The position numbers and the translations under genes are program-made. 36,789 nt of DNA from IMG/VR virus record IMGVR_UViG_3300031645_000004, positions 1 through 36,789 of that record, one strand, 5' to 3'. The notes beneath the pieces are model-generated. The model worked only from the letters and a program-made list of their open reading frames with translations, had not been told where the DNA came from and did not search any database. The DNA comes from a virus. Shown here in pieces: positions 978-36,670 of this stretch (position 1 is its first letter; each line of letters begins with the position of its first letter).

Positions 978-3900
978 TTATCCAATTTCGACTACATCAG
1001 TCATTTTAAGCTTACCAGCATGATAATCATCCCAAGCTGCCTTGACATTGTTGTACTTATGCATCTTACCAGTACGAGGTTTATCTAAGTTTACTGTAGC
1101 CTTGTAGAGACCTAGTATAGGTTCCTGAGTAGGAGCATAAAGTAGATCACCCTTCTTTTTATCTGAGTACATCAACTCAGAAGGCATCATCTTTTTAGCA
1201 TCTTCAATGCCTTTGTCTGTAACTGGTAGGTGGACAGACATTGTATCATAGACAACAAAACCAGCCTCAGTAACCATTGTATAGGCAGGAGGTATAGTTA
1301 AGTCATACGCCTCAGTAATCTCGGGGAGCGGTGTAACAGTCTTAACTACTTCCCAGTCGATGCTATCATCTAGCACCATCTCTTTCCACTTAGCCCAGAA
1401 CTCTGAGGTTTCAAATAAGTCCAGATCTAATTTAAACACCTTAGTAGCTAAGAGCTTTGTGAGAGGCAGACCCTTCTTAACACTCTGCCATACTGATGTA
1501 TATAAGGTATTCCGGTCTCTATAGCTACTGAGCTCATCCCCAATAAACTTGAATTCTTTAGTCCGAGGATTCTTAACCTCTTTGTACCCAATAGCAGTCC
1601 TCAACTCTTTAACTCGTTTCTCTGAGAGAGTTGGAGTGTACTTCTGAGCATTGAGATTCTGTGGAATCACAGCCTTCGCTAGGATACCAGCTTTATACCC
1701 TACAAAAAGTTGTAGCCTACCTTGCATTTTACCAATAGACTCATAATTAAAGGTAACCATCCAAGCTTCTTTACCTGTAACTGTCAACTTACTAAACAAG
1801 CAGTTAGCTGTTAAGTCCAAACTATGTGCTAACGCCACTAGTTCAAATGCTAATGTCCTAGAGGTTGTCGTGTAACTTACCTGAGTCTGAGACTTCTTCT
1901 TAACAGCAGCTTTTACTAAAGTTACTGTACCATCTGTATCTATGAGACCCGCTAGTAGGCCCCATCGGAATTCTTCAGGAGAATGCATCCAGTAAGGAGG
2001 TAAGCACTTGTTTTCTGCGCCATGTCCTATGTTGTTTCTGAAGTAATCAGCAATAGGCCTGCAGTTAATACTAACTTTCTCAGAGTAGCAGTCATGACCA
2101 TCAAAGGTATGTAGAGATTTAACTACTGTAGCACCTTTAGCAAATCCTTCACTAATTGAGCGTATGCAAGACTCGAACTCATTTCTGACTTCTATTGAAA
2201 CATTAGCCAGCATAACATCACTAGGGCGGAGCGTAGCATTGATCCAACCATCACCTATAAAACTACCATTAAGATACCCGAACTCCTTATCCAGAGGAAC
2301 AAATACACTACCTACATCTGAAACTTCTATTTCTGTAATAGGCTCAGCCATCCTACTAACTGACTCACGCAAGCGGGGGACTACCATACCGACAGAAGGC
2401 TCTGCTTTTATATACTTAAGATCCACATCTATGGTTACTAGAGAATGATCTTTTGAGCACTGTATAGAGCCATTAGTATGGGTTTTTACCTCTACCATAG
2501 TTAGATCTTTATGGATGTGAAAGCTTTCTACGGGGAGCCACGCCTTAACGCCATCCCTAACAGTAAGTACTTCAAGATCATCAGGTACTTCGAAGACCTC
2601 TTTATTGCCTGTCACTACTCCAGTACCTTCTATCCTTGGAAAGTCTCGTAAATTCATCAGACCATAATTGTACCGTACCCTTACTTCATTAAACGCCATA
2701 TCAAGTTCCTTAGTATTAGAGGTATTAGACTCTATATAAGAGGAACTATTGATTCGATTTTTAAGTACTAAATTCTGATTTATAGACGATGCTTTAACTC
2801 TGTAAGCTATTGAATTTACTATGCAGTCACCATCAAAGTCACTATTAAGAGCATTCTCCCACAATGTATTAATAAAAATAGTCTTGCCTGGGCGAAGAAC
2901 GGGTTTAGCTGCATTAATACTATATTTCCATAAAGTAGGAGCTCTATTGACTAATACAGGGCGATGCTTTAGTTCCTCTAAGAGTATCTGACGAGCCATG
3001 TCTGATCTATCATCAATAGCATCTTTAGCTTCGAGTGCCCCATAGCCCATCTGAACCATCTTACGAACTAGGAAGGGTTTGTACATCCCCCAAGCCATAT
3101 CCTCAGGTAATCCAATTTCATCCATAGCTAAGGTATTGTCTGGAGCGATAGTGCCTCGCCCAGTAAAGTTCTGCTTAGAATACATAACCTTGCGCTGGAA
3201 GAATCCAGTCTTAGGATTGTCACCAGCGATGTAGCGAATAGCACCCTTGACACCTTTGTTACGCATCTGAGCTGAGGCTGGATCAGAAACACCCGTAACC
3301 TCTTTTACACGCTGCGACATAGACTGACGATTCTCTTTAATATCCTCGTCACTCATACCAAGCTTCTTGAGATCTTTAATGCTGTTGTTCTGCAAAATTA
3401 GATCTCTGTAAAGCATGTTAGCATCACTAGGCATTAAGTCCCCACTCTTACCAACCGTGATAGGTCGCATAGTAGGAGGCATAATAGGTACCTTAGACAT
3501 AATGTAAGCATCACCAGCTTTGTTACCTGTAGCTATCAAGGCTTTGAGATACTTAATTTTCTTAACCATCTTGTCGAGGTCACCACCTTTTAGCTTAGGA
3601 TCACGGACAGACTCCTCAGCAATACCTAGTTCTTTTTCTAGGTTGATAGCATTCAATTTCTTCTTAAGAGACTTACCACCTTCAGTTACAAAGGCTTCCT
3701 GCAAGTTCTTAGATGTTCCATAGCCTAATAGGTTCTGGACAGGGCCTTCAAAAACAGGGTTAATAACAGGCTCTTCTAAATCAACATGAGTCCATCTCTC
3801 ACCTTTCATACCACCAGTTAGAACGTCGTCAAAGAGACCACCTTTTTCAGTATTTAGCTTTGCATCAATTTGTAAGGCGTTCTTAACCTCACCAGAAGAC

Positions 3901-6900
3901 ATAGCCATTACATCTTTATCAGTAAGAGGTCCAGCAGTAAAACCACCGTTCTTCTTATCAACCTTGATACCTGCCTGCTTCAGCATGTCCACAAACTTAG
4001 AGAAAGTCTTCTTCTCGGTAGGCATGTGTGAGATTCCTCCATACTGAAAGCTTCTCCAAAACTCATCATTCTTTGAGCTACGAAGTATGGAACTCTCTTG
4101 CATAATGTTACGAGCGTTGTGAGAGATTAAAGCATTAACCTCCATAACCCCTATGCCCTTAGGACCATTCTCACCAGAGCCTACTGGTGCTTCGTCTTGA
4201 TCATAGGCACCTTCGACACCTCGAGTAGAGTAATTAGCCTCAGTAGTTTTAAAGAGCTTATGAATATGTTGAACACCTACAAAAACATTAGGGATCTTCT
4301 TACCCGTTACAGGATCAAAGACAGTTTCTTTGTCTTTAACATTGTGTTTCTTCATCTCATCCTTAACGAACTGCACGTTGTCTTTAGATGAGAAGTTCTC
4401 AATACGGTAAGGCTTGCCTGTCTTCTGAGCAATCTTACCTAGAGTACTCTCTAGGATCTGGGCAGGGTTAATACGACCTGGGACACCTGCAGGAGTAAAG
4501 ATAATGTCAATAGGATCTCCGTTAGCATCCGTAGGCATCTGATCATCCGGTACCAATTTAGTAGCTACACCTTTATTACCATAACTACCAGAGAGCTTAT
4601 CCCCTAGGGCCAGAGGCTTCTCCAAGCGAAGCATGACTGTAATAGTCTTGCCGGCCTTATGCACCTCAAGGACTTCCCCTTCATAATCATGATCATAGAT
4701 CTCACTGATATCACGGTACGATGTCATTAAACTCTTGTGCAGTTGACCGAGGACAGCATTAGCACGGCTATCAGAATTATCTTCAAGAACTAGAATAATA
4801 GGATCTTTGCTGTGAAGAATCTCACCCTTCTTAACAACCCCATCAGAATCGAGCTTAGCTAGTTGCTCTTTAGTGAAGTTAGTTGGGTAATTAGCAGCAT
4901 ACTTGCCTTTATCTAAAATCTTACTCTTATCTAGTGTGACACTAATTCTATCAGCATGAACACTTGTCATCTTTTTAGCAGCACCCTCAGAAACGACAAT
5001 ACCGTCCTCATGGTTCAGACCTTGATAAGGCATGTAAGCGACTTTTAGGTTTCTACCTAAGGCTAACTTACCATCCTTACTGAAGTTGTTATCTCCAAGG
5101 ATCTCACCCTCTTTAACAGTATCCCCGACTTTAACTAAAATATCATTATGTAGAAGGGTCTTACTAGAAATAGGAAGATTGTTTTGGTATTCAACCTTAT
5201 GAGTTTCTTTACCACTCTTGATGTAAATAAAGTCATCATCAATCTTAGTAACAGTACCAGCAGCAGGGGCAATAGGCTTCAGGAAGTCATTGATACGATC
5301 TTGAATGTTCTTGCCTTCTTCAGCAAAAGAACTATTAGCAGTATCAACAAGTCGTGCATCCCGCTCTTTTAGAGGTAGAGCTTGCTGCAAATGCTTGTTA
5401 CCCATTACAACACGGTTAGCTTGATTTGAGTTGACTAAGGGTAGGGCGGATACTGAAGCAGACATAATATGGTGAGCTGAGATAATCTGATAGTCCAGCT
5501 CAGAACGCTTAACCTTAACAAGACGACCACGCTTAGTAGCTGGGACAATCTCGTTAGGTTTCTTACCGCCCCCACTAGTAGTAGCATCATCAGGAAAACC
5601 TACAGCCTTATCTGCAAGGTCAATAATCCTTAAGGTTTCCCTCTTACCAGTCTTGATATTGATTACTTCCTTATAAAGCTCATTATCATCCCCACGTAAA
5701 GCCCCCATTGCAAACTGGTTATCTATCCCAATCTTAGAGCTTTCAGGAGTTGCCACAGGATCAATAGTACCTAAGTAACTATAATTGACTGCACGAGTCT
5801 CATTTGGTACCGCCGATTCCGAAGATATTGCACCCTCACCAAGACGAGTAACCGTTGCTGCGCTCTCAAGGATACGCATAGGATTAATATTATCTGCTAG
5901 ACGACTAATAGAGCTACTCACTAAGAAGTTCTTTACAGGCTTACTAAATAGTGTAGGGGAGAAAATATCTTTAAGTTTCTCAGTATCACTACCCATAGAT
6001 AGATTTAAAGCATCCAACTTACTCTTGATACGACGAGGAATATCTGCAGCTTTGTCAACAACTTCCTTTATAATATCCTCAGCACTGTAGACTTTCTGAA
6101 ACTCTAGATTGTCACGCTCATCAATGTCTCCTTCATCTTTATACACACTAAGGATTCGTTTAGCGGCACTAAGGATAACTTCACCACCAACCTTACTAAA
6201 AGCTTTGCCTAGAGTTAGCTTGGTTGTGTCCTCACTAAGCTCCGTACCATCAAAGTACTCTTTGATCTTATTGATCTTCTCCTGAGTGGAAGCATTGTCT
6301 CCAAGCTGAGTATTGTACTTAACCAACTTATCAAACAAGGTATTAATAGTACGATCAATCTGATTTTGGGAGATAGCAGTATTAATAGCATAGAGGTCTT
6401 TACCAAGAACAGTTTTCAGGGACTCAGGATTGGTTCCTAGAACTTTTAATACACCATACATAGGAACGGTAGCATGTAAGATACTTATCTTAAACATACC
6501 GCTGTCTGGGTCCATAATGAGCTTGAAGTTAGCTCCCTTCTCTAAGTTAAAGGAACTCTCAATCTCATCATTGCCTCGTTTACGCGTATAAACACCTGAC
6601 TTAGTACGAAGCTGATTAACAATATTGTACTCATTACCATCAATCATAAATGTCATTCTATTAGTAAAATAGGGGACATTCATAATACGATGCTTCTTTA
6701 ATGTAGTAAGCAACTTACCTGTTGCTTTTTCAGTTACAGTAATATCACCATAAACAGCATCAGAAGCATTACCCTTAGCAAGTATCAACATCTTCTGCTG
6801 GTTCTGACTCAAGGACACATGTTTGATTGTAATATTGCTAATGTTAGCAACATATCTGTTGCTAACAATAGGGAACTTATCTCCTACAGCCTTAATGACA

Positions 6901-6965
6901 TTGCGAGAAATTGCATCGCGAATGGTTTGTGGGTCTGTAAGTATTGCTCTAATATTAGTAGTCAT
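978..6965 (-). CDS. Fused beta-beta'N multisubunit RNA polymerase with intein
   Basis: A 1995-aa precursor of a DNA-directed RNA polymerase of the cellular multisubunit type. Residues ~1-1090 are beta-like: GLNHEDGIVVSEGA near 650 and GDKLSGSYGNKGV near 785, followed by a stretch like the RpoB hybrid-binding domain. Near 1090, GLFDDVLTGGMKGERW marks the start of beta'; HRPVLVNRAPTLW follows at ~1332 and the catalytic NSDFDGD at 1374-1380. All three metal-binding Asp are present. A 527-aa intein follows immediately, and the C-extein TMSVHLPV resumes the RpoC sequence at 1908. The protein ends at 1995, near E. coli RpoC residue ~530 by analogy, so bridge helix and trigger loop are absent and must be a separate subunit. 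The spliced product would be 1468 aa. The start ATG overlaps the preceding gene by 11 bases, indicating translational coupling. Split phage RNA polymerases are known in giant phages; this beta-beta'N arrangement is read directly here. Confidence 0.92.
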   Translation of the reverse strand: MTTNIRAILTDPQTIRDAISRNVIKAVGDKFPIVSNRYVANISNITIKHVSLSQNQQKMLILAKGNASDAVYGDITVTEKATGKLLTTLKKHRIMNVPYFTNRMTFMIDGNEYNIVNQLRTKSGVYTRKRGNDEIESSFNLEKGANFKLIMDPDSGMFKISILHATVPMYGVLKVLGTNPESLKTVLGKDLYAINTAISQNQIDRTINTLFDKLVKYNTQLGDNASTQEKINKIKEYFDGTELSEDTTKLTLGKAFSKVGGEVILSAAKRILSVYKDEGDIDERDNLEFQKVYSAEDIIKEVVDKAADIPRRIKSKLDALNLSMGSDTEKLKDIFSPTLFSKPVKNFLVSSSISRLADNINPMRILESAATVTRLGEGAISSESAVPNETRAVNYSYLGTIDPVATPESSKIGIDNQFAMGALRGDDNELYKEVINIKTGKRETLRIIDLADKAVGFPDDATTSGGGKKPNEIVPATKRGRLVKVKRSELDYQIISAHHIMSASVSALPLVNSNQANRVVMGNKHLQQALPLKERDARLVDTANSSFAEEGKNIQDRINDFLKPIAPAAGTVTKIDDDFIYIKSGKETHKVEYQNNLPISSKTLLHNDILVKVGDTVKEGEILGDNNFSKDGKLALGRNLKVAYMPYQGLNHEDGIVVSEGAAKKMTSVHADRISVTLDKSKILDKGKYAANYPTNFTKEQLAKLDSDGVVKKGEILHSKDPIILVLEDNSDSRANAVLGQLHKSLMTSYRDISEIYDHDYEGEVLEVHKAGKTITVMLRLEKPLALGDKLSGSYGNKGVATKLVPDDQMPTDANGDPIDIIFTPAGVPGRINPAQILESTLGKIAQKTGKPYRIENFSSKDNVQFVKDEMKKHNVKDKETVFDPVTGKKIPNVFVGVQHIHKLFKTTEANYSTRGVEGAYDQDEAPVGSGENGPKGIGVMEVNALISHNARNIMQESSILRSSKNDEFWRSFQYGGISHMPTEKKTFSKFVDMLKQAGIKVDKKNGGFTAGPLTDKDVMAMSSGEVKNALQIDAKLNTEKGGLFDDVLTGGMKGERWTHVDLEEPVINPVFEGPVQNLLGYGTSKNLQEAFVTEGGKSLKKKLNAINLEKELGIAEESVRDPKLKGGDLDKMVKKIKYLKALIATGNKAGDAYIMSKVPIMPPTMRPITVGKSGDLMPSDANMLYRDLILQNNSIKDLKKLGMSDEDIKENRQSMSQRVKEVTGVSDPASAQMRNKGVKGAIRYIAGDNPKTGFFQRKVMYSKQNFTGRGTIAPDNTLAMDEIGLPEDMAWGMYKPFLVRKMVQMGYGALEAKDAIDDRSDMARQILLEELKHRPVLVNRAPTLWKYSINAAKPVLRPGKTIFINTLWENALNSDFDGDCIVNSIAYRVKASSINQNLVLKNRINSSSYIESNTSNTKELDMAFNEVRVRYNYGLMNLRDFPRIEGTGVVTGNKEVFEVPDDLEVLTVRDGVKAWLPVESFHIHKDLTMVEVKTHTNGSIQCSKDHSLVTIDVDLKYIKAEPSVGMVVPRLRESVSRMAEPITEIEVSDVGSVFVPLDKEFGYLNGSFIGDGWINATLRPSDVMLANVSIEVRNEFESCIRSISEGFAKGATVVKSLHTFDGHDCYSEKVSINCRPIADYFRNNIGHGAENKCLPPYWMHSPEEFRWGLLAGLIDTDGTVTLVKAAVKKKSQTQVSYTTTSRTLAFELVALAHSLDLTANCLFSKLTVTGKEAWMVTFNYESIGKMQGRLQLFVGYKAGILAKAVIPQNLNAQKYTPTLSEKRVKELRTAIGYKEVKNPRTKEFKFIGDELSSYRDRNTLYTSVWQSVKKGLPLTKLLATKVFKLDLDLFETSEFWAKWKEMVLDDSIDWEVVKTVTPLPEITEAYDLTIPPAYTMVTEAGFVVYDTMSVHLPVTDKGIEDAKKMMPSELMYSDKKKGDLLYAPTQEPILGLYKATVNLDKPRTGKMHKYNNVKAAWDDYHAGKLKMTDVVEIG
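1245..2825 (-). other. Intein with LAGLIDADG endonuclease in the NADFDGD motif
   Basis: Residues 1381-1907 (527 aa) interrupt the RpoC motif exactly after NSDFDGD. The first residue is Cys (CIVNSIAYRV). Block B-like sequence is NGSIQCSKDHSLVT. Two dodecapeptide-type motifs occur, LNGSFIGDGW (~1563) and LLAGLIDTDGTV (~1667), as in DOD homing endonucleases. Block F-like sequence is EAYDLTIPPAYTMVTEAGF. The C-terminus is VVYD followed by Thr, not the usual HN plus Cys/Ser/Thr, so Asp and Tyr replace the canonical Asn and His. Precise excision restores DFDGD-TMSVHLP, matching DFDGDQMAVHVP of cellular enzymes. Boundaries are inferred from that join. Splicing activity is not proven. Confidence 0.9.
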
Positions 6966-7437: not shown

Positions 7438-9210
7438 CTATCCTATAGCTGAGGGTTGTTGAGGTTGCTGAGGCATGCCTACTTGAGCGGCTCCACCAGG
7501 CTGTTGTTGTAATCGAGCCTCTTTACCCTCACCCTTGTTATTTGCAGATTCCAACAAAGTACGAACCATGCTGTACATAACGTAATCTTCACCTTTTAAC
7601 TGAGCTAGCTGACTACGACGGTCTTCATAAGGGATAGCAATCATCTGAGATACGAGTTGTTGTGCTGCAGCCATAAGCTTCTGCTGATTATATTGCGGGA
7701 TGGTACCATTCTGCTGAGCTTGTTGATCTTGAGCAGCTTGATTAGCTAAATCATCTTCGATCTCTTTCTGCTCCTGGGCAACACGCTTCTGAACTTTTAG
7801 ATCGGCTGTAGCATCTGTAACAATCTTATCATCTTCCTCATCTTTATTGAGATTCAGAGCCTCAAGAACAGTAGTCTTAGAAACACCGTTACCCATAGCC
7901 TGCATAAGAAGTTGTTTCTGACTAAGATCATCAGCAAGAGTAAAGGGTGAGAATTTAATGTGGCAGAAGTTCTTGTCGTACTTAGCGTTGATAGTATCAA
8001 TAACCCAGTTAACATACTTAGTAATCTGAGCTACGTAAGGACGAAGTTGATTCTCTAGAATCCGTAGAGCTACTGGAGAGTTATTAAGGTTACTGGTACC
8101 ATATACAAACTCTATAGGGATATCTAAAGCACGGAGCATATCTTCTTCAGCAGCTTTGATCTCTGCTGTAGGAAGAAGACCACGACCTTGACTACCAATA
8201 TTAGTTACTCCAGTAGGATACGGAGCAAGCATTACATAGTTAGGATCATGACGCCACTGAGTCAAAGCCTTTTGAACCTGAGCTTTCCAATCACCCATAG
8301 CAGTCATAAGTGATGGATCATTACTAGTGCCTTGAGGAAAAAGAATACGCTGTGGTGTAATATGCTCTAGGCCAATACTCTCTACAGACTTACGTAAAAT
8401 AGCTGTGTAAAGATATAGTTTCAGACAAGGTAGCAGCGGTGAAAGACCCCAACCTGTAGAAAAGCCGGCAATTGAATTAGTCTTGGTATGATAAAAGTTA
8501 TTGGTGTGCTCAATAGCTTTATTCTTCTTGAAAGACTCAAAGAATACTTTAGGTACATACCCAACAACATTCTTATCACCAGAAGCAATTCCTTTTCGAA
8601 GGGCCGGAGGCATACGATAATAGTAACGGCAGGTTCCTGTAATAGGATTGCTGTTAAGCTCGATATTCTTTGGGTCCCAAGTAACTAGCTTAATATCTTT
8701 AAAGCTCTGTATATCTCGATCCTCAATATTAGCAATAGCTGTTCTCTGACAATTAGCACAGGAAAGTAGGAAGTCGCCCTTCTTTAACTTATAGTTAGCT
8801 TGCTCTATATTAATCTCGGTACCACAAATCTTACATTTTAACATACGAACAAAAGGGAAGTATATACTACGAAACGTATTCCCGTATATGTAGTGATCTA
8901 CACCCATGTTCAATAAGTGGGAAAACATGTCCAAGTCTTCCTCTAAGAGCTTCTTAGTAGCCTCCTTAATATCCTTGGAGTCTGACTCATAGATGAAGTC
9001 TGTGATTGGGTAGTTAATTAGCTTGTTGATGCCATTAACTAGGGCTGGTGAGTTAGCGTAAACCATCTCACACCACTTAAACATTTCACTATGATTACGG
9101 GGTAATTGTTCTGAAAGATAATCAAAGAATTGATTATTATACATTCTAGTAAATCTAGTATCTGTGCTGGCTCCAAGAATTCCTGTTGGAGTCTGTATGG
9201 TCTCTGGCAT
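7438..9210 (-). CDS. Portal protein
   Basis: A 590-aa protein with portal features: an N-terminal region with alternating helices, the core VTWDPKNIELNSNP, a long middle part with DIPIEFVYGTSNLNNSPVALRILENQLRP typical of portal stems of large phages (residues ~365-395), and a Gln/Ala-rich C-terminal tail. Residues 126-154 carry a zinc-ribbon-like insertion, C126-x2-C129 and C151-x2-C154, in the wing region. It forms the dodecameric channel at the capsid vertex through which terminase loads DNA. AGGTGG lies close before the ATG. It is first in the leftward operon, yet the terminase large subunit is about 22 kb away, also on the minus strand. The portal call rests on sequence feel and context. 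Confidence 0.8.
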   Translation of the reverse strand: MPETIQTPTGILGASTDTRFTRMYNNQFFDYLSEQLPRNHSEMFKWCEMVYANSPALVNGINKLINYPITDFIYESDSKDIKEATKKLLEEDLDMFSHLLNMGVDHYIYGNTFRSIYFPFVRMLKCKICGTEINIEQANYKLKKGDFLLSCANCQRTAIANIEDRDIQSFKDIKLVTWDPKNIELNSNPITGTCRYYYRMPPALRKGIASGDKNVVGYVPKVFFESFKKNKAIEHTNNFYHTKTNSIAGFSTGWGLSPLLPCLKLYLYTAILRKSVESIGLEHITPQRILFPQGTSNDPSLMTAMGDWKAQVQKALTQWRHDPNYVMLAPYPTGVTNIGSQGRGLLPTAEIKAAEEDMLRALDIPIEFVYGTSNLNNSPVALRILENQLRPYVAQITKYVNWVIDTINAKYDKNFCHIKFSPFTLADDLSQKQLLMQAMGNGVSKTTVLEALNLNKDEEDDKIVTDATADLKVQKRVAQEQKEIEDDLANQAAQDQQAQQNGTIPQYNQQKLMAAAQQLVSQMIAIPYEDRRSQLAQLKGEDYVMYSMVRTLLESANNKGEGKEARLQQQPGGAAQVGMPQQPQQPSAIG

Positions 9211-23975: not shown

Positions 23976-25065
23976 TAATGTGGCTGAAGTAAAACTCGCT
24001 CAATTGCTGGAACACCCTACTCCCAAATAGTGAATTCTATGGAGACGATTATGAAAAATTCCGAGAATACTAAATGGTCACGTGATTACTCTGCATGTCA
24101 GAGATGTGGCACTACTGAAATACCTCATCGTAACTATGGCCTTTGTAGAAAATGTTTTAAGTATAAAGTGTATCGTAACCTTCCCCAAGTATGTCCTGGG
24201 TGCGGAAACACCTTTACACCACTAAACAAGCAGGACAAAACAAGCTATAGAAAATTCTGTACTCCTAAATGTCGTAATGCTTATAGGGTTGAGAATAACC
24301 TTATGCCATCCAAGCCTGCAAAGTATAAGACAAAAGCACAGTTCTTAGTAGCTGTAGAAAAAATTATACTAGGTAAGGGCAGGTACGTAACTATGGATGA
24401 GCTTTGTGCTGAATTAAAAGTGTGCGGGAATAGTACTTTTAAGAAGTGGAATGTTTCTATACTAGGTACTCATAATAAACTAGGGATTAAAAAACCTGTT
24501 AGTGTAGTTACTGAGATAGTTATTGGAGGTATTCAAGACCTACTTCCAGACATGATCAGAGAAGCTACTTTTGAGGATTTAATATCTAGTAAAGGAATGG
24601 TACTCCGCTTTGATCTATATTCAGAAAAATATAGATTACTCATTGAAGTCGATGGGTCACAACACAAAGAGGGTCATGATTGGTACTCAGAGCATCGAGC
24701 ATCTAACGATAGAGCTAAAGAGGATTTTGCAAAGAAGAATTACCTCAACCTATTAAGGATTCCTTTTACTAAGAGTCATAAGATAGATATTGAGGAAGTC
24801 CGAAAGGTAGTCAGTAGAATAGTAGAGCTAGGAGTTCAGGATCGTAAGGCCTGTGAAGCTAAGCCATTTATTGGTGAATGCCGACAATTCACAGGATGGG
24901 GCAATCAGCAGCCAGAGGTAGTAGGGATACTACCAAATGGTCCAACGACTCATAGGCCGTCTAGAACAGATGGCACTAGGACGGAATCTTCCGTAACATG
25001 GCGAGACAGGGCATAAACTCCTGTAAGGTATAGTCTAGTCCCTTATGAAAGTAAGGGTAGTAACG
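23976..25065 (+). ncRNA. Group I intron in the DNA polymerase gene
   Basis: A 1090-base insertion between ...GGT (T before the 5' site) and ACA, with final intron base G (25065), the usual group I ends. Conserved core elements are visible: P-like CAATTGCTGGAA (24001), Q-like AATCAGCAGCCAGAGG (24903), R-like GTCCAACGACT (24940) and S-like AAGGTATAGTCT (25025); GACT of R pairs with AGTC of S to form P7. A terminal hairpin CCCTTA/TAAGGG-type follows. Exact joining restores the polymerase motif NFG-TIFCMGAESLAKQL in frame. Introns at this gene are known in Bacillus phages SPO1 and SP82. Confidence 0.93.
24051..25016 (+). CDS. Intron-encoded Vsr-like (EDxHD) homing endonuclease
   Basis: A 321-aa protein starting at ATG 24051, where GGAGA lies five bases upstream; GTG 24030 and ATG 24039 have no good site. 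Two N-terminal zinc-finger-like clusters (CQRCGTTE...CRKCF; CPGCGNTF...CTPKC) precede a DNA-binding middle. The nuclease core LLIEVDGSQHKEGHDWY, then RAKEDFAKKNYLNLLRIPF, is like the very-short-patch repair fold seen in some phage homing endonucleases. The last ~50 residues overlap the ribozyme core and are unlikely to be functional protein. It would cut intronless polymerase genes and spread the intron. Confidence 0.85.
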   Translation: MKNSENTKWSRDYSACQRCGTTEIPHRNYGLCRKCFKYKVYRNLPQVCPGCGNTFTPLNKQDKTSYRKFCTPKCRNAYRVENNLMPSKPAKYKTKAQFLVAVEKIILGKGRYVTMDELCAELKVCGNSTFKKWNVSILGTHNKLGIKKPVSVVTEIVIGGIQDLLPDMIREATFEDLISSKGMVLRFDLYSEKYRLLIEVDGSQHKEGHDWYSEHRASNDRAKEDFAKKNYLNLLRIPFTKSHKIDIEEVRKVVSRIVELGVQDRKACEAKPFIGECRQFTGWGNQQPEVVGILPNGPTTHRPSRTDGTRTESSVTWRDRA

Positions 25066-25599: not shown

Positions 25600-25678
25600 T
25601 AAAATAATCACTTCAATCAAGTTCTAAAAGACCCATGATTATTGTTACAAGATATTGTGATACCAGGAGTTATCTCAT

Positions 25679-25894
25679 ATGCACGAGGGTGCAAAGATGA
25701 CTAATGGACAAGGTTACGACTTAATCATTACCTTCGTCGGACATGAAGTACGTGTGTTTCTTTGCAATGGGGCTGTTCTGTCTGGAGAGCTAAAATCATT
25801 AGAAGGGAAGCACATCCGTATTAAGAAGTCCGGAGCAGAAGGTTTAGAGGCAGTAGTAAACTTGGACCACATGGTTAGCATAACCAAGGTATAA
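25679..25894 (+). CDS. Small Sm/Hfq-like RNA-binding protein
   Basis: A 71-aa protein with the beta pattern of an Sm fold: residues ~15-40 (LIITFVGHEVRVFLCNGAVLS) correspond to Sm1 with the NG turn, and GELKSLEGKHIRIKK then LEAVVNLDHMVSITKV to Sm2. Hfq compares as V..YLVNGIKLQGQIESFD...H.ISTV. It would form a ring that binds RNA. AGGAG lies nine bases before ATG 25679; an alternative ATG at 25697 has GAGGG at good distance. A TTGTTACAAG site (one base off the promoter motif) lies ~30 bases upstream. Directly downstream is an array of structured RNAs, a likely set of ligands. The fold call is by pattern, not by search. Confidence 0.55.
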   Translation: MHEGAKMTNGQGYDLIITFVGHEVRVFLCNGAVLSGELKSLEGKHIRIKKSGAEGLEAVVNLDHMVSITKV

Positions 25895-25910
25895 TTTTCG
25901 ACTAGAGATT

Positions 25911-26030
25911 GAACGACAACATCTGGAGAGTAAAGCTCTCCACTAGATGTAGTCCTGCTTGTTTCACAGCAGGACATCCAGGATCTGCAGACTCGAGTTC
26001 TCCCGGGTCCTATGTATGTACTATCAGTAG
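25911..26030 (+). ncRNA. Structured RNA module 1
   Basis: Outer stem ACATCT / AGATGT (25919-25924, 25945-25950), inner stem GGAGAG / CTCTCC, loop TAAAG, 3-base bulge ACT on the 3' side. It is followed by a hairpin GTCCTGCT / AGCAGGAC and an AGGA/TCCT-bounded element, then ATCAGTAG. It begins 17 bases after the Sm-like gene stop, so it may be part of its 3' UTR. Confidence 0.7.
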
Positions 26031-26074
26031 TCAAAATTTCACAGTTCAGTTAAAGATTAAACTAATATGCAGTC

Positions 26075-26160
26075 AAGCAAAAGGCTAGCAGAGTAAAGCT
26101 CTGCAGACTAGCTTAGAGCACCTTTGGGAATCCAGCGATTCCTTTACACTACTCAGATAT
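26075..26160 (+). ncRNA. Structured RNA module 2
   Basis: Outer stem AGGCTA / TAGCTT (26082-26087, 26109-26114), inner stem GCAGAG / CTCTGC, loop TAAAG, bulge AGAC. The sequences of both stems differ from module 1 while pairing holds. A short hairpin GGAATC / GATTCC follows. This is the shortest module. Confidence 0.65.
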
Positions 26161-26189
26161 TAGTGAATAAGATACAGGATTAAAATGCT

Positions 26190-26364
26190 TTAGATAGGAA
26201 CGAAAGTTACTTAGGGAGGTAAAGCCTCTCAGACTAAGTAGCCTTCAATAGACTTCAGAGTTCACACAACTCCAGTTACCTTACGCTACGCTTTATGTAA
26301 CTGGAGTTGATGCTACCTACTGAAGTCTATTGAAAGCGCCCGGATAGAAGAAGGAATCAGTAAA
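26190..26364 (+). ncRNA. Structured RNA module 3 with a long rod
   Basis: Outer stem GTTACTTA / TAAGTAGC (26206-26213, 26235-26242), inner stem GGGAGG / CCTCTC, loop TAAAG, bulge AGAC. The 3' rod has a perfect 15-bp stem TTCAATAGACTTCAG / CTGAAGTCTATTGAA (26244-26258, 26320-26334) and an inner 11-bp stem ACTCCAGTTAC / GTAACTGGAGT. The end motif is ATCAGTAAA (26356-26364). Confidence 0.8.
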
Positions 26365-26380
26365 GCATGTAAGACTTTTT

Positions 26381-26570
26381 TGTTTAGAGAAATACCCATT
26401 ATTTCAGGGAGGTAAAGCCTCTCATAAGAAATAGCCGGTACGGAACGTCTTCAGCGGACGCAAGGTAAACTTTTCGGAGGATCTCACAGGTGAGATCTCA
26501 TGCTCCTCAAGTAAACCTAGCTACCCGCCATGACGTTCCGTACCGGCCCAGAGATGAATAATCAGTAAAC
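26381..26570 (+). ncRNA. Structured RNA module 4 with a long rod
   Basis: Outer stem TTATTTC / GAAATAG (26399-26405, 26428-26434), inner stem GGGAGG / CCTCTC, loop TAAAG, bulge ATAA. The rod starts CCGGTACGGAACGTC and closes with GACGTTCCGTACCGG (26435-26449, 26532-26546; 15 bp perfect) and contains GATCTCAC / GTGAGATC. Upstream GAAATA can also pair with TATTTC, excluding the outer stem. The end motif is ATCAGTAAAC. Its first 46 bases match module 5 with one difference. Confidence 0.8.
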
Positions 26571-26593
26571 AAAGGAAAGAGAGTAACAAATTA

Positions 26594-26788
26594 TGTTTAG
26601 AGAAATACCCGTTATTTCAGGGAGGTAAAGCCTCTCATACGAAGTAGCAGATCATACGCCCGAACATCCAACCGTCCTAGGTATGTGAGTACACGCCGTC
26701 TAGGTCTTCGACCTTGCACCGGCGTACACACAAATACCCAGACTTCTGGATGCTCGGCTCCTGATCTGCAGTAAGAAGAATCAGTAAA
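26594..26788 (+). ncRNA. Structured RNA module 5 with a rod
   Basis: Outer stem GTTATTTC / GAAGTAGC (26611-26618, 26641-26648), inner stem GGGAGG / CCTCTC, loop TAAAG, bulge ATAC. Rod: GCAGATCA / TGATCTGC (26647-26654, 26762-26769) then CCGAACATCCA / TGGATGCTCGG with one mismatch. The end motif is ATCAGTAAA (26780-26788). The tRNA begins 11 bases later. Confidence 0.8.
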
Positions 26789-26799
26789 CATAACAGTAA

Positions 26800-26875
26800 G
26801 GGTGTATAGCTCAGTTGGTAGAGCCGACCGCTCATAACGGTCTGGTCCCAGGTTCGATCCCTGTTGCGCCCACCA
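26800..26875 (+). tRNA. tRNA with anticodon CAU (Met, or Ile2 if modified)
   Basis: A 76-base cloverleaf: acceptor GGGTGTA / TGCGCCC with two G-U pairs, D arm GCTCAGTTGGTAGAGC, anticodon stem GACCG / CGGTC with loop CTCATAA, T arm with loop TTCGATC (one stem mismatch), discriminator A and encoded CCA. CAU could read AUG, or AUA if C34 becomes lysidine. It lies between RNA modules 5 and 6 and would be released from the same transcript. Confidence 0.95.
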
Positions 26876-26889
26876 GTAACAAAGTTAAA

Positions 26890-27085
26890 CCATTTAGAGA
26901 ACGTACAGTTAGTTCAGAGAAGTAAAGCTCCTCATACGAATTAGCTGGCACACGTTTAGTCTACTCTATCTCCAGGTAATTTGGCTCCCGATCTCACTAT
27001 GTCTTCGACATCTATTCATCGAGATGCAAAATAACCTGGCTTCCGAGTAACTAAACTGTGCCTGCATAAGTGAAAAATCAGTAAA
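26890..27085 (+). ncRNA. Structured RNA module 6 with a long rod
   Basis: Outer stem AGTTAGTTC / GAATTAGCT (26907-26915, 26938-26946; 9 bp with G-U), inner stem GAGAAG / CTCCTC with one mismatch, loop TAAAG, bulge ATAC. Rod: GGCACA plus TTTAGT / ACTAAACTGTGCC (26947-26960, 27050-27062), with an inner CCAGGT / ACCTGG. The end motif is ATCAGTAAA (27077-27085). Confidence 0.8.
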
Positions 27086-27100
27086 TGGTAAGCACGAAAT

Positions 27101-27170
27101 CTACTCCTCCTAACCTAAACAAGCTGTTGCCTTGATCGAGCAATGAAGGCTGGGGTTAGGAGGCGAGTAG
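27101..27170 (+). ncRNA. Terminal rod hairpin lacking the UAAAG module
   Basis: CTACTCCTCCTAACC (27101-27115) pairs with GGTTAGGAGG and AGTAG (27154-27163, 27166-27170), all 15 bases paired around a two-base bulge. It resembles the rods of the modules but has no TAAAG domain before it, so it may be a truncated seventh unit. Confidence 0.65.
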
Positions 27171-27193
27171 ACTCGGAAGAAAGTCTATTTTTT
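27168..27193 (+). terminator. Terminator of the RNA array transcript
   Basis: Stem TAGACT / AGTCTA (27168-27173, 27182-27187) followed by six T plus one. It would end a transcript running through the Sm-like gene, six modules and the tRNA. Confidence 0.75.
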
Positions 27194-27225
27194 AACAACT
27201 AACCTATCACACTAAGGAGAACATC

Positions 27226-27615
27226 ATGTACAAACAAGCCGCACAACTGAAGCTACGGTTCGATTCCAAAGTAGGACAAATCACAGCAGAAGATCTTTTC
27301 GACCTACCTCTTACCTCTAAGAACAAAGCCTGCCTCGATGATATCGCTAAGGGTCTGCATCGTGAGATTAAAGACGGTGAAGAAGAAAGCTTTGTTGTCA
27401 GCAAGTCTCGTGGCAATGCTCTATTAGAGCTCAAGTTCAATATCGTTAAAAGTGTTATTGCAGACAAGATCGAAGCAGCTCAGGCAGCGCAGAACAAAGC
27501 TGAGACAGTAGCTAAGCGTACCAAGCTTATGGCTAAGATTGCTGAGAAGCAGGATTCAGCTCTTGACGAGAAATCACTTGAGGAGTTGCAGGCTGAGTTA
27601 GCTGCTACTAAGTAA
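27226..27615 (+). CDS. Conserved phage protein of unknown function, coiled-coil C-terminus
   Basis: A 129-aa protein of a type I recognise from large phages by its start (MYKQAAQLKLRFDSKVGQ) and LFDLPLTS; function unknown. Residues 30-80 are globular (CLDDIAKGLHREIK, EEESFVVSKSRGNALLELKF) and ~80-129 are a long Ala/Glu/Lys helix, probably coiled coil (QAAQNKAETVAKRTKLMAKI). AAGGAGA precedes the ATG. It is 30 bases upstream of the next gene and likely co-expressed. Confidence 0.8.
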   Translation: MYKQAAQLKLRFDSKVGQITAEDLFDLPLTSKNKACLDDIAKGLHREIKDGEEESFVVSKSRGNALLELKFNIVKSVIADKIEAAQAAQNKAETVAKRTKLMAKIAEKQDSALDEKSLEELQAELAATK

Positions 27616-27645
27616 CTATTAATAAAAATTTCTGGGGGGGGAACT

Positions 27646-29667
27646 ATGCCAAACTTCGACACTTTTAGAGATGCAGTACACGTTCAGTTTACTAAGATGG
27701 CTAAGCTAGAGTTGTTTCAAACTGAAGTGGATAAAGACAAATTGTGGGAGACGTACTTGGCTAGTTTCCCTGCCGGCACTAACCCAATCTACAAAGAGCG
27801 TACTAAGCATGATTGTACGTGTTGTAAACAGTTCATTCGTGCTTGTGGCAGCGTTGTAGCTGTAGTTGACAACAAGCTGGTATCCATTTGGGATATCGAA
27901 GTAGACGGCTTCTTCCAAGAGGTAGCTAACGCTATGTCTGCTCTGGTTAAGTCCTACCTCATCAAGAATCTGTATCTGCACGATGTCCGAGCACTTGGTA
28001 ACAAGGCAACTCACCAGGAGCTAGAAGGAGGTGAAGTCCTTACTTGGAGTCACTTTTACTTTAAGCTCCCTACAAAATTTATAGCCACAGGCGATACGCT
28101 AGGCTCTAAGTTATCTGAAGCTCGTAGCACTAAGGACGTATTTAAGCGGGGAGTCTCTGAGATCTCTGATACATCAATTGCTATAGTAATTGAGTTGATT
28201 AAGCAAAAGGCTATCTACCGTGGTGAAGAGTTCTTAGGCATAGTAAAAGCTTTTGCTGAGGAAAAAGCAGTGTTTAATATGATCAGTAATCTAGTAGAGC
28301 GGGATATCTTCTGCTGGTTACGTTCTATGTCTATAGGTGGTGCAGCTGCACGAGTACGTAATACATCTATTGGTACATTGCTAGTGGATCTTTCTTCTGG
28401 TATGGAACTGGATGCAGCAGTTCGCTTGTTTGAGAGCAAGGTAGCTCCATCGAACTACAAGCGTCCTACTTCAATAATTACGAAGAGCATGATTGAAAAG
28501 GCTGAAAAGACAGTCAACGAGTTAGGCATTGGTGCATCTCTACAACGGCGCTATGCAATCATGGAGGACATCAACGCTACCAATATCCTTTTTGCTAACC
28601 GATCAGCTAAAAAGATTATGAATCCTTTTGAGGAACTCAAGCATGAGGTTCCTACCAATATCAAGAGCCTTAACAAGGTCACTGAGATTGGTATTGAGGA
28701 GTTCATTAGCACGGTACTGCCTAAGGTCAACAGTGTAGAGCTAATGTTTGAGAACACTCACGAGAACAACTTAGTGAGTCTCATTGCTCCTACAGATCTG
28801 ACTGCTCCGAACATTTTCAAGTGGGCTAACAACTACACTTGGTCTTATGCAAATGAAGTGACTGATTCAATCAAGACTCGGGTCAAAGCTGCTGGAGGTG
28901 ATGTTGGTGGTGTATTACGTTTCTCTATACAGTGGAATGAGAAGAAGGATAACCAAGATGATCTAGATGCACATTGTCTGGAGCCTACAGGTGGTCTGAT
29001 CCACTACCGTAATAAGGGATGCCGGCATGAGTCTTCTGGTATGCTGGATGTTGATATTCAAGATCCAGGTCAGAACATTGCCGTAGAGAATATTACGTAC
29101 AATAACAAAAGTAAGATGCCTGAGGGTGATTACTCCTTCATGGTTCATAACTATTCCAAGCATGGTGGAAAATCTGGCTTTACTGCTGAGATCGAATTTG
29201 ATGGTAAGATTCAAACTTTCTACTATCCTAAGCCTCTACGTAGCTCCCAGAAAGTTAAGGTAGCTATTATTAATTTGAGTGCTTCTGGCGTGTTCTCGGT
29301 AGGTAAGTCTCTTCCAGAGGCTAACGCTTCTAAAGAGCTGTGGAATATTCCTACCCATCAGTTCCACAAAGTATCAGTTATGATGCACTCACCTAATCAC
29401 TGGGATGAGCAGGGAGTTGGTAACAAGCACTTCTTCTTCATGTTAGAGGGTTGTAAGAATGATGAGCCTTCTCGTGGATTCTACAATGAGTTCTTAGATG
29501 AGCGACTTAGTGAGCATCGCAAGGTGTTTGAAATGTTAGGTTCTAAGATGAAGACAGCTCCATCCGAGAATCAGCTCAGTGGGTTAGGCTTCTCATCTAC
29601 ACAACGTAATCATGTCTTCGCTAAGGTAGAGGGTACATTCTCACAGACCTTGAAGATCTTGTTTTAA
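27646..29667 (+). CDS. Large conserved phage protein with DUF2135/YfaP-like domain
   Basis: A 673-aa protein. Residues ~55-70 contain CTCCKQFIRACG, a possible metal site. Residues ~425-540 resemble DUF2135/YfaP-type beta domains: VLRFSIQWNEKKDNQDDLDAH, LIHYRNKGCRHESSGMLDVD, then NITYNNKSKMPEGDYSFMV. Such domains occur beside von Willebrand A and TerD-type proteins, but no MIDAS motif is seen here. The rest is unassigned. The ribosome site is a run of eight G (27634-27641) rather than AGGAGG. The protein lies between two RNA-rich zones. Alternatives include a tail or an internal virion protein. Confidence 0.7.
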   Translation: MPNFDTFRDAVHVQFTKMAKLELFQTEVDKDKLWETYLASFPAGTNPIYKERTKHDCTCCKQFIRACGSVVAVVDNKLVSIWDIEVDGFFQEVANAMSALVKSYLIKNLYLHDVRALGNKATHQELEGGEVLTWSHFYFKLPTKFIATGDTLGSKLSEARSTKDVFKRGVSEISDTSIAIVIELIKQKAIYRGEEFLGIVKAFAEEKAVFNMISNLVERDIFCWLRSMSIGGAAARVRNTSIGTLLVDLSSGMELDAAVRLFESKVAPSNYKRPTSIITKSMIEKAEKTVNELGIGASLQRRYAIMEDINATNILFANRSAKKIMNPFEELKHEVPTNIKSLNKVTEIGIEEFISTVLPKVNSVELMFENTHENNLVSLIAPTDLTAPNIFKWANNYTWSYANEVTDSIKTRVKAAGGDVGGVLRFSIQWNEKKDNQDDLDAHCLEPTGGLIHYRNKGCRHESSGMLDVDIQDPGQNIAVENITYNNKSKMPEGDYSFMVHNYSKHGGKSGFTAEIEFDGKIQTFYYPKPLRSSQKVKVAIINLSASGVFSVGKSLPEANASKELWNIPTHQFHKVSVMMHSPNHWDEQGVGNKHFFFMLEGCKNDEPSRGFYNEFLDERLSEHRKVFEMLGSKMKTAPSENQLSGLGFSSTQRNHVFAKVEGTFSQTLKILF

Positions 29668-30191
29668 AACGCCCTCTCTGCCTCTGAGAATTATCCTAAT
29701 TACTCATGCACACTTACGAGGAGTCAGCACTGGATACGAGTCTGTCCTACTGCTTGCTTATTGAGGACTCAACGGTTGGTACTTACGTTAGTACCCTGCT
29801 AGGTGATTAGGAGCCTAGTAGCTTTTAGTTGGTGCTGAAAAATGTAGCGAAGCCTACTGGTCTAGGTAAATGAAGAGTCCTACCACATCTCTGCTAGCGG
29901 CTGTTAACTCAGTGAGACTAGAGTCTGCAATAGCTGTTGCAGAACTAAGTATATGACGGTAGGGGGGACGAAAGGGCCTCTTAAACACAAGGCCAGCAAC
30001 TAATTATCTTACCTACCAAGTCGTAGGAAAAGGAACGGAATCGTTGTAAAGCGATTCTAGCTAATCTACTAAGTCTCTGATGAGTGTATAGGGTTCGATT
30101 CCCTTCAGGGTTTTCCTGTCACGTGGTGTGAATTAAGGCTTAAGACCGGAGGTTTGAATCCTTCCGCTTAGTAGTTTATTTAGGAGACGTA
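29668..30191 (+). ncRNA. Gene-free RNA-rich zone with tRNA T-arm-like motifs
   Basis: 524 bases without a credible ORF but full of hairpins: GGTAC / GTACC (29778, 29791), CTGCAA / TTGCAG (29925, 29937), CCTAC / GTAGG (30012, 30023), GAATCG / CGATTC around a loop ending TAAAG (30038-30057), an AGGAAAA / TTTTCCT pair (30025, 30111) and CTACTAAG / CTTAGTAG (30066, 30167). Two B-box-like sequences, GGTTCGATTCC (30092-30102) and GGTTTGAATCC (30151-30161), resemble tRNA T arms, the second directly before the 3' strand of the CTACTAAG stem. No normal cloverleaf could be built. It may be a large structured RNA or decayed tRNA genes. Confidence 0.55.
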
Positions 30192-30428
30192 ATGTCAGAC
30201 ACAATCATAGTCTGTAAAGACGAAGCTCTCGTAGAGGAGCTTAACGAAGCTACCCCAGACAACGTTAAAGTTGTTGGTCTTGTAGGTGCTGGTCATCTGC
30301 AAAATGCAGAAGCAACATTCCTTTTACAGGCACATGAATATCAACTAGCCCCTTGCCGAGCCTATGTCGAAGGCCTGGGTAAGAAGACTCGTAGACGAGG
30401 CCAGCGACAGGCTTACAATAACTATTAA
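30192..30428 (+). CDS. Unknown 78-aa protein with basic C-terminus
   Basis: No family recognised. The N-terminal half is acidic (CKDEALVEELNEATPDN); then VVGLVGAGHLQNAEATF; the C-terminus is basic (LGKKTRRRGQRQAYNNY), suggesting nucleic-acid contact. AGGAG lies seven bases before the ATG. The next open frame on this strand, from 30651, is in the same phase, and no other stop lies between them. Confidence 0.65.
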   Translation: MSDTIIVCKDEALVEELNEATPDNVKVVGLVGAGHLQNAEATFLLQAHEYQLAPCRAYVEGLGKKTRRRGQRQAYNNY

Positions 30429-30650
30429 CAATTATGGGCTAGAGGCGGTCTTGTTATTCCTGGTACCAGGATCACCAAGAACGGCGACTCTTATAAAGCG
30501 GATATAACTCAGGGGCAGGTACCAAGAACTGAGGGAAATAAGTGTAGCGAGGTTCGACTCCTTGCCTACCCTCTCATTCACAGGGGCAGACTAGATCGTT
30601 TCATAACCTTTACAAAGTTAGTTGAAGCCTCATCTTTAGTACTGCGTAAA
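30429..30650 (+). other. Gap with T-arm-like motif and in-phase open frame
   Basis: 222 bases. It holds CTTG(..)TCCTG-GTAC-CAGGA(..)CAAG, a two-tier hairpin at 30450-30479, CTCAG / CTGAG (30508, 30527) and the T-arm-like GCGAGGTTCGACTCCTTGC (30547-30565), followed by CTACCC. Upstream GGGCAGG could pair with CCTACCC except for one base, but the enclosed segment (59 bases) is too short for a full tRNA. At the same time the phase of the flanking genes has no stop for 74 codons. Coding by read-through and a structured RNA are both possible. Confidence 0.4.
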
Positions 30651-34658: not shown

Positions 34659-35300
34659 ATGCAGAGAGAAGATCATGTACCAAGTGGCGAAGTAACCGTC
34701 CCTGAAGGGGTAGAGCCAATTCCGGCTGACATGTGTGTAGAGGCTAGTAATCCAGACTTAGTAGCAGAACAATCTGATCTCAGGGAAGCATTAGTTCATA
34801 TTAGTTTCAATGATAATCCAGAAGTGTCCACAATTGTACGTTCTATGTTCTTGATTGATAGAGAATATGTACAAATTCATGGTGTAAAATCTATCACCTC
34901 AGTCTTCAAGAATTGCATTATCTATGATGTAGCTCAATGCCTGAACTTCAAAGCACAGTCTATTAGTCTGTCTGAGAGGGATTACATTAACTCACTATTT
35001 CAAACTCACCTATTAGTGATCCCTATCCGTGGAGTCACCTATAAGGGGGGTCAATACTCTTACTCTAGCTCGGCAAAGATTAAATTTGCAGGGTTTGACT
35101 TTAAACAGTTTGCAGGTAACAAAGTATTTTCTTATGTCCCAAGTAGTGGTCTTAGTATCAAGGGGCTAATTCTATTTGGTAAACTGGTTACAGCTTTCCC
35201 ACCTAGATACCCAGGAATACCTATTAACTTAGCACACGACTTTGAAGAACTTGAAGCCTCTATGCAAACCGCCATAACTACTATACTTGACAGTATTTAA
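34659..35300 (+). CDS. Unknown 213-aa protein, partner of the reverse transcriptase
   Basis: No family recognised. The N-terminal ~35 residues are acidic and probably unstructured; the rest looks alpha/beta (VRSMFLIDREYVQIHGV, FKNCIIYDVAQCLNF, THLLVIPIRGVTYKGG). The gene has AGGAG seven bases upstream and lies only 14 bases before the reverse transcriptase, so both are made from one mRNA. Adjacent genes of RTs often encode toxins, effectors or accessory proteins, but nothing in the sequence selects among these. Confidence 0.75.
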   Translation: MQREDHVPSGEVTVPEGVEPIPADMCVEASNPDLVAEQSDLREALVHISFNDNPEVSTIVRSMFLIDREYVQIHGVKSITSVFKNCIIYDVAQCLNFKAQSISLSERDYINSLFQTHLLVIPIRGVTYKGGQYSYSSSAKIKFAGFDFKQFAGNKVFSYVPSSGLSIKGLILFGKLVTAFPPRYPGIPINLAHDFEELEASMQTAITTILDSI

Positions 35301-35314
35301 CGGAAGGACCAGCT

Positions 35315-36670
35315 GTGAAAATCACAACTTTTGACAAATCTATATTTGATACTCCTCAAGGTCGTAATAGCCTAGTACATGATTACCAAACTCTAGGCAT
35401 TAGATCGTATATTGCTCCTCAAAGATTGTCTTGGATTCTCAAGAAGACTGATGGTGGTATACGTAATATCCAGGAAATGACTAAAAAGGTAATGATCGGT
35501 GGGCGGATTACTTATAATAGTGCAACTCCTCTAAAGATTGTACAGAACAAGTTAGGGGCTATGCTCCTGTCTGAGCAGGAACGCCTGCCTATGGATCATG
35601 TATGGAGCTATCGTCCTAATGTAGACTTCTATAAAGAGCTTTCTGATTTTACAGGTGCTCAATACTTAGTCCAGTTTGATATCCGCAAATACTTTGATAC
35701 CATACCTATCACGAAGATTGTGGATGTTCTCACTCAAGAGGAACATGGCTTCTCAAAAGAGGGTGCTACCTTAATTGCACGGTACCTCACAGTTCGACGC
35801 AAGTCTCACATAGGTAACTTCTTTGATAACACACTGCAGCAAGGAAGTCCTGCCAGCCCAGTAATGTCAAATATTGTAGGGTATCACTTATTTGATAAGC
35901 CTTTACTGGCTATGTGTGCTCAGCTTGAGCTAGATAATCCTAGGCTGAAGATGCGCTACCGACGATACTGTGACAATATATTTGTATTTGTAGATGGAGA
36001 AATACCTTTAGCAGCAATCCAAGATTTTAAAGAGGCTGTACATACTACAGTTGTAGGAGCTAAGTTCCGATACCATCAGTGGTCAGTCACTCCAAATAAT
36101 CACCCAAAGCGTAATCAGAAAGTACTGGGAGTGGTTTTAAACGACAAGACCCGTCTTGAAAAGAGCAAATATACAAAGCTTCGTTCAACCCTATTCAACT
36201 CTTGCACTCTTGGTAAGTCCATAGCCATTGATAAATTCTTTGTAGAGAATCCCATATTCATGTCTCCATCCACACCAACACCTTTGATTATTGAAATTTA
36301 CGCCAAGAAGTTCGATATGATTATGCAGGGTAGGGTTAGTAATATGTGCTCAGCTAGTTCCATTCTAGGTCTACAGACTAAGAAGCTTTTCAAAGCATCT
36401 AAGGTCTTGTCTGGGAAACTAGGTAGTACCCACAAATCGCTGTTACCTACTGAGATTTTTAAGGCACTTAGTTCCTATAAGGATGCAAGCATTACCTTAG
36501 ATAAGTATCTAGAGAATCTTACTAATGCTTGTATAGATGTTGAGGAGACTGAAAGAGAGAAGTGGAAGGCTACACAAGCACAGACTCAAGTTAATTATAG
36601 AGCCCTTAAAAACAAGCAACTTTCAATGGGTAACTATAGCACTAATACTACTACGTCTTATGGTGCTTAA
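35315..36670 (+). CDS. Reverse transcriptase of unassigned class
   Basis: A 451-aa RT with GTG start and GGAAGGA just upstream. Motif A FDIRKYFDTIP (Asp 122), motif B QQGSPASPVMSNIV (~175), motif C YRRYCDNIFVF (Asp 220; the second Asp of YxDD is Asn 221), and the later segment VLGVVLNDKTRLEKSKYTKLRS resembling the VTG-type C-terminal region of retron and unclassified phage/bacterial RTs. N-terminal RT0-like helices are followed by WILKKTDGGIRNI. A helical tail of ~130 residues (FKASKVLSGKLGSTHKSLL) is extra. QGxxxSP, rather than the (I/L/V)GxxxSQ of diversity-generating RTs, argues against a DGR. Could be a retron-like or defence RT; a priming RNA has not been identified. Confidence 0.88.
   Translation: MKITTFDKSIFDTPQGRNSLVHDYQTLGIRSYIAPQRLSWILKKTDGGIRNIQEMTKKVMIGGRITYNSATPLKIVQNKLGAMLLSEQERLPMDHVWSYRPNVDFYKELSDFTGAQYLVQFDIRKYFDTIPITKIVDVLTQEEHGFSKEGATLIARYLTVRRKSHIGNFFDNTLQQGSPASPVMSNIVGYHLFDKPLLAMCAQLELDNPRLKMRYRRYCDNIFVFVDGEIPLAAIQDFKEAVHTTVVGAKFRYHQWSVTPNNHPKRNQKVLGVVLNDKTRLEKSKYTKLRSTLFNSCTLGKSIAIDKFFVENPIFMSPSTPTPLIIEIYAKKFDMIMQGRVSNMCSASSILGLQTKKLFKASKVLSGKLGSTHKSLLPTEIFKALSSYKDASITLDKYLENLTNACIDVEETEREKWKATQAQTQVNYRALKNKQLSMGNYSTNTTTSYGA

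Follow-up and report, generated by a model that had tools for sequence, protein, structure and literature searches.

What kind of RNA occupies a long gene-free stretch in the genome of a large phage, and what could such RNA do for the phage? The DNA analysed here (hereafter the window) is a linear 36.8-kb IMG/VR virus record from an uncultivated tailed phage, with genes for a terminase, a portal protein, a beta-beta' RNA polymerase fusion and a family A DNA polymerase. The polymerase region and a gene for a 71-aa protein (25679-25894) are followed by 1.3 kb with no plausible gene, up to the next one at 27226. The original prediction, made from the sequence alone, had placed there (25911-27193) an array of six related structured RNAs of a form without known parallel. 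Known retrons combine one RNA with one reverse transcriptase (RT), and most retrons whose role has been established protect their hosts from phages.

The array and its gene surroundings

Inspection of the sequence and of its inverted repeats located all six predicted modules on the plus strand. The array is present, but its limits differ from those proposed: the array proper extends from 25900 to 27089 and encloses a tRNA-Met gene (CAT anticodon; 26800-26875, plus strand) between units 5 and 6. On its upstream side it is adjoined by the plus-strand gene of the 71-aa protein, a homologue of which (62% identity) is likewise found directly upstream of the array in a related phage (G002). PDB matches of this protein are weak but unanimously Sm/Lsm/Hfq-like (E 0.06-0.8), and as a lead only, it could be an RNA chaperone.

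The window also encodes an RT of 451 aa (35315-36670, plus strand; Pfam RVT_1), directly preceded by the gene of a 213-aa protein of unassigned function (34659-35300, plus strand). Homologues of the latter, ranging from 213 to 246 aa, occupy the same place in G002 and in a further relative (G003), and profile and family searches with it returned no family match. AlphaFold models of the RT (pLDDT 45) and of the 213-aa protein (pLDDT 47) were too poor for use.

Several other features of the window are recorded here in their own right. The RNA polymerase fusion (978-6965, minus strand) comprises 1995 aa, compared with 1471 aa in the relative L010, and harbours an intein-like insert of about 520 aa, with Cys as its first residue, directly after the catalytic NSDFDGD motif. 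The DNA polymerase A gene is split at the NFG motif, both in the window (23978-25045), where a homing-endonuclease-like gene (24030-25016) occupies the gap, and in G002 (L137:13712-13923), where the split site holds a group I intron (Rfam match). Two non-coding stretches (29668-30190 and 30430-30640) contain the T-arm-like sequences GGTTCGATTCC and GGTTTGAATCC; ARAGORN and Rfam call no tRNA in them, and we read them as putative decayed or unusual tRNAs.

Anatomy of the six units

All units share a 5' module, whose two-stem architecture agrees with the original prediction except that the outer stem measures 6-10 bp instead of 6-9 bp; it is followed by a bulge of 3-4 nt on the 3' side, an inner stem of 7 bp and an AAA triloop. 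The letters UAAAG, previously taken for the loop, are present as described but more plausibly represent an AAA triloop closed by a U.G pair, on the basis of the G002 counterpart GGAAACC, which has the same AAA loop. What had been overlooked is the identifying feature of the units, namely a closing stem of 5-10 bp that is formed by complementary ends (a1 and a2) and is different in each unit. In six of six window units a G lies directly 3' of a1 and an AG directly 5' of a2.

Unit 1 (25900-26032) is closed by a1 GACTA (25900-25904, followed by G 25905) and a2 TAGTC (26028-26032), i.e. by 5 bp plus a bulge, which is short for the range reported from retrons, and its AAA-triloop hairpin (about 25915-25954) is followed by two short hairpins. 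Unit 2 (26061-26164; a1 ACTAATAT 26061-26068, G 26069, a2 ATATTAGT 26157-26164) consists of the AAA-triloop hairpin and a short 3' hairpin, with almost no rod. Unit 3 (26185-26368; a1 ATGCTTTA, G 26193, a2 TAAAGCAT 26361-26368) has the hairpin GTTACTTA..TAAGTAGC (26206-26242) and a long rod (26244-26335), and unit 4 (26377-26575; a1 TTTTTGTTTA, G 26387, a2 TAAACAAAGG 26566-26575) similarly a hairpin and then a long rod (26434-26547). In units 5 (26591-26793; a1 TTATGTTTA, G 26600, a2 TAAACATAA 26785-26793) and 6 (26889-27089; a1 ACCATTTA, G 26897, a2 TAAATGGT 27082-27089) the hairpin is followed by a long interrupted rod. All six lie on the plus strand. The predicted rod stems TTCAATAGACTTCAG/CTGAAGTCTATTGAA of unit 3 and GCCGGTACGGAACGTC/GACGTTCCGTACCGGC of unit 4 are both real, and units 3-6 indeed terminate in ATCAGTAAA. 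Units 4 and 5 have 55 nt in common at 94.5% identity. Among the phage sequences compared, no targets of the rods were found.

Beyond unit 6 a last plus-strand rod without 5' module (27094-27190; inverted repeat and fold, stem CTACTCCTCCTAACC/GGTTAGGAGGCGAGTAG) is followed by a TAGACT..AGTCTA hairpin and T6, which probably represents the 3' end of the array or a terminator; the sites listed by a terminator scan do not include it.

Support for a selected RNA structure

The claim that the RNA structure is under selection, with compensatory changes in the stems, is borne out by folding statistics and by permutation. Whole-unit folding gave z values of -4.3 (unit 1), -6.7 (unit 3), -8.2 (unit 4), -6.3 (unit 5) and -6.5 (unit 6), with no shuffle equalling the native sequence, while unit 2 folds less convincingly (z -2.0 for a piece of 121 nt, with 9 of 200 shuffles folding as well). 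Swapping of 3' arms among the six window units yielded P values of 0.001 (a1/a2), 0.003 (outer stem) and 0.009 (inner stem). When the five units of G002 are included (11 units in total), 90 of 90 pairs are formed in a1/a2, 78 of 81 in the outer and 76 of 77 in the inner stem, as against means of 50, 37 and 53 pairs, respectively, with permuted 3' arms; none of 20,000 permutations matched the observed pairing in any of the three helices. Compensatory pair types occur at most positions of all three helices in the two phages. In the pairing table of the 11 units G.U pairs number 22 and A.C pairs only 2, an asymmetry that identifies the plus strand as the one transcribed into RNA.

As predicted, no Rfam family fits: the sole match at gathering level is the tRNA, and at E<=1 nothing else of relevance was found over 25600-30650. 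The covariance-model search that had been suggested as a check was of no help, because a model built from the five best modules missed even the orthologous array of G002, in which the shape is conserved and the sequence is not. Shape grammar together with RT homology succeeded where the covariance model failed. A strict whole-unit grammar scored four hits in the window, four in L137, none in the other scanned loci and one in ten simulated 36.8-kb controls; a looser grammar, applied to 1,388 kb, gave clusters only in the window and L137 arrays, with scattered single hits elsewhere. Exact-pattern scans for the TAAAG module found, outside the array, only chance or coding matches.

The reverse transcriptase

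The RT scored 88 bits with the retron St85 profile, compared with 42 for group II, 24.5 for Drt2 and 16.5 for AbiA. Its best PDB match is the RT of retron-Kva2 (1e-8), and Ec107-like RTs are among the top PADLOC matches. A search of viral contigs with the single protein gave no relatives, while an alignment of the window and G002 RTs recovered two further phage types, to which additional scans added none. In a tree with retron, group II and DGR (diversity-generating retroelement) references taken from bacterial genomes and from G003, and with DRT and UG/Abi RTs left out, the RTs of the four phage types group together (95/91) on the retron side; the split between that side and the group II and DGR RTs has support of 100/100. 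Membership of the DGR RTs is thereby contradicted.

The motifs of this clade deviate from those of retrons. All four RTs carry YCDN where retrons have YADD, keeping the first Asp. NAXXH (region X), found in 14 of 16 validated retrons, is absent from all four, although several sampled retron-profile RTs miss it as well. VTG (region Y; likewise 14 of 16 validated retrons) is also absent from the four; its position holds xLG (VLG, FLG, LLG or ILG) and then a conserved N. Outside these phages, a search of bacterial genomes matched only a YADD Treponema RT and a group II RT. Among published phages (about 50,000 records, at the sensitivity used) there was neither an RT of the phage clade, the nearest find being a 27% partial RT match in two staphylococcal phage records, nor an array, the only matches being to tRNAs.

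Arrays in related phages

The RT clade thus occurs in four phage types, the window and three other uncultivated ones, and arrays are present in four of four. Their architecture is the same and their stem sequences are unrelated; RNA-family searches miss these arrays because the four types share almost no primary sequence.

The closest relative, G002, has an RNA polymerase 75% and an RT 40% identical to those of the window. Its array of five units (L137 14831-15867) is syntenic with that of the window and has perfect a1/a2 stems of 7-12 bp; G follows a1 and AG precedes a2 in five of five units, hence in 11 of 11 together with the window. The record G001 represents the same phage (99.9%) and stops within the first unit of the array, so that its lack of an RT is uninformative. 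In G003, whose RT is 35% identical, the contig starts inside the array and shows two units (L139 1-340, z -10.3), and a terminator hairpin shortly precedes the terminase gene. An RT with 25% identity to that of the window is shared by G004 and G005, which are identical to each other over a stretch of 20.7 kb. The G005 array (L148 5145-7054, minus strand, at about 65.1-67.1 kb) contains stems such as AAGATCTCT/AGAGATCTT, AGAATCCT/AGGATTCT and AATCTCCC/GGGAGATT. Here, too, a1 is followed by G and a2 preceded by AG, and CTAYRYYTAG is conserved at the 3' end. A Vibrio phage (2.275.O) had no RT and no match to the covariance model, a weak comparison in view of the insensitivity of that model.

Further observations concern these relatives. 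In G005 the 3' arm of one unit (AGGATCTT, AAGATCTCT) doubles as the 5' arm of the next (L148:5300-5625, minus strand), and since neighbours share arms, adjacent units may be mutually exclusive folds. A non-coding stretch of the same phage (L148:3890-4095) holds several copies of the palindrome TACTTTCCGGAAAGTA and of its halves. In G002 a perfect 17-bp hairpin without a T run follows directly after the RT gene (L138:2540-2590). Zn-ribbon-like and RuvC-like ORFs lie downstream of the RT in both G002 (L138:3108-4325) and G003 (L139:6007-7034), and in G002 the two are separated by an inserted TnpB/OrfB-like gene. Finally, G003 carries, beside its RT of the array clade, an apparent diversity-generating retroelement (L139:7511-12475, minus strand) with a second RT (YMDD), an Avd-like ORF (8843-9178) and a large protein with a template-repeat-like C-terminus.

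RT and array are separated by 8 kb in the window and by 4 kb in G002, and in G005 they lie 40 kb apart on opposite strands. A single transcription cassette of msr, msd and RT is therefore found in none of these three, and the link between RT and array is by co-occurrence only. This co-occurrence comprises four phage types, without complete RT-less relatives as controls, which leaves a residual chance of coincidence.

What the array may be

The form that had seemed without parallel matches the msr-msd anatomy of retrons (PMC6868368), a match that emerged when the a1/a2 stem was recognised and a retron-clade RT was taken into account. Anatomy, covariation, co-occurrence of RT and array and the placement of the RT together make it probable that the six units are retron-like templates of msr-msd type, served in trans by the phage's own RT. 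Each unit would fold closed through pairing of its ends, the G right after a1 would be the likely 2'-OH primer, and the 5' AAA-triloop hairpin, common to all units, the likely recognition element of the RT. Copying would begin just upstream of a2 and proceed through the rod, with every unit yielding its own small, msDNA-like hairpin of DNA, branched or linked to RNA and about 50-145 nt long. The copying of the array RNAs by the RT, the priming site, the processing of the array and its biological role are inferred, the copying and the priming from the layout of the units and from the co-occurrence of RT and arrays. With regard to the role, our best guess is that the set of DNAs would act on nucleic-acid-sensing or repair functions of the host or of competitors during infection, for instance by serving as decoys or titrants. 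The diversity of the rods would be in keeping with multiple targets or with fast change under counter-selection.

Alternatively, the array could consist of structured regulatory or decoy RNAs that act as RNA, for example as bait for host RNases or RNA-sensing defences or as ligands of an Sm-like protein, with the RT being unrelated and serving another purpose. The distance between RT and array, the possible Sm/Hfq-like protein directly upstream of the array in both the window and G002, and the tRNA inside the array would all suit such RNAs; the presence of arrays in every phage type with the RT clade, and a layout in which retron templates are matched in several independent respects, among them the G that follows a1, render this explanation rather unlikely. 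It is still less probable that the RNAs are templates of an RT of DRT/UG-Abi type, with protein-primed or rolling-circle synthesis instead of 2'-OH priming. Other RT systems with structured RNAs nearby do exist (DRT2, PMC12039810), and the lack of NAXXH and VTG would agree with them, but the Drt2 and AbiA profile scores are far below those of retron profiles, the RT belongs to the retron side of a tree built without DRT reference RTs, and closed a1/a2 ends with a G constitute the layout of retrons. Least credible of all is the view that the array is what remains of mobile or repetitive elements, for instance of a hairpin element that has multiplied, and no longer has a function: the units are tandem and partly similar, as units 4 and 5 illustrate, but pairing is near-perfect and compensatory in every unit of two phages, the position is conserved in G002, and arrays recur in distant phages.

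If the array does comprise retron-like templates, a phage that encodes a retron-like RT of its own together with a library of templates would reverse the relation between retrons and phages, a single RT would be able to serve many templates in trans, and the system would be a natural multiplex producer of ssDNA with a small common recognition hairpin. It would also permit a direct test of how phages benefit from msDNA production. We lean, with some reserve, towards a class of large phages that have multi-template retron-like systems, in which an RT with altered catalytic and recognition motifs works in trans on up to six different templates and the DNAs, made during infection, serve the phage, in counter-defence or takeover, instead of host immunity. 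The findings suggest one enzyme serving many DNA-making RNAs, of which we found no earlier description in the open-licence literature; open-licence papers likewise contained no report of phage-borne multi-template arrays.

Comparison with known systems

The msr-msd RNA of retrons has complementary ends of 8-30 bases with a priming G at the inner end of the 5' arm, one to three msr hairpins and one long msd hairpin (PMC6868368), and the context of the priming G is commonly TAGC (PMC6868368, Simon et al. 2019). The phage units resemble bacterial retrons, e.g. Retron-Eco1/Ec86, in their complementary ends, in a G placed where the priming G would be expected and in a 5' hairpin followed by a long one, from which unit 1 with its two short hairpins and unit 2 with almost no rod deviate; the phage RT, moreover, falls in the retron clade. 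The G follows a1 in all 11 units, but its context is mostly TAGA or TTGG and not TAGC (TAGA in window units 1 and 3-6, AAGC or TTGG in G002). Unlike bacterial retrons, the phages have up to six templates per RT, an RT outside the cassette with NAXXH, VTG and YADD replaced, and no known effector gene, the conserved 213-246-aa protein upstream of the RT being a possible candidate without family match, and their arrays are carried by large uncultivated phages beside packaging genes. By its layout and RT clade the system is retron-like and not a retron of known type, because NAXXH, VTG, YADD and the single cassette are all missing.

Both Retron-Kva2, whose RT is the nearest in sequence among those with solved structures, and the Ec107-like elements are bacterial retrons. 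Retron-Kva2 (type IX) functions in defence, with a HEPN protein as effector and a canonical YADD (PMC13405049), while RT-Eco5 (Ec107) has YCDD (PMC6868368). Diversity-generating retroelements likewise involve a phage-borne RT with an RNA template, but their RTs form a separate clade, and the window shows no pair of template and variable repeats. For multiplied templates the only precedent found is Retron-Nex1 (Ne160) of Nannocystis, with several msr-msd repeats and no RT within a kilobase (PMC6868368). Its repeats are apparently duplicated and reside in a bacterium, whereas the phage units are strongly diverged, have their own stems and rod each, and recur together with a related RT.
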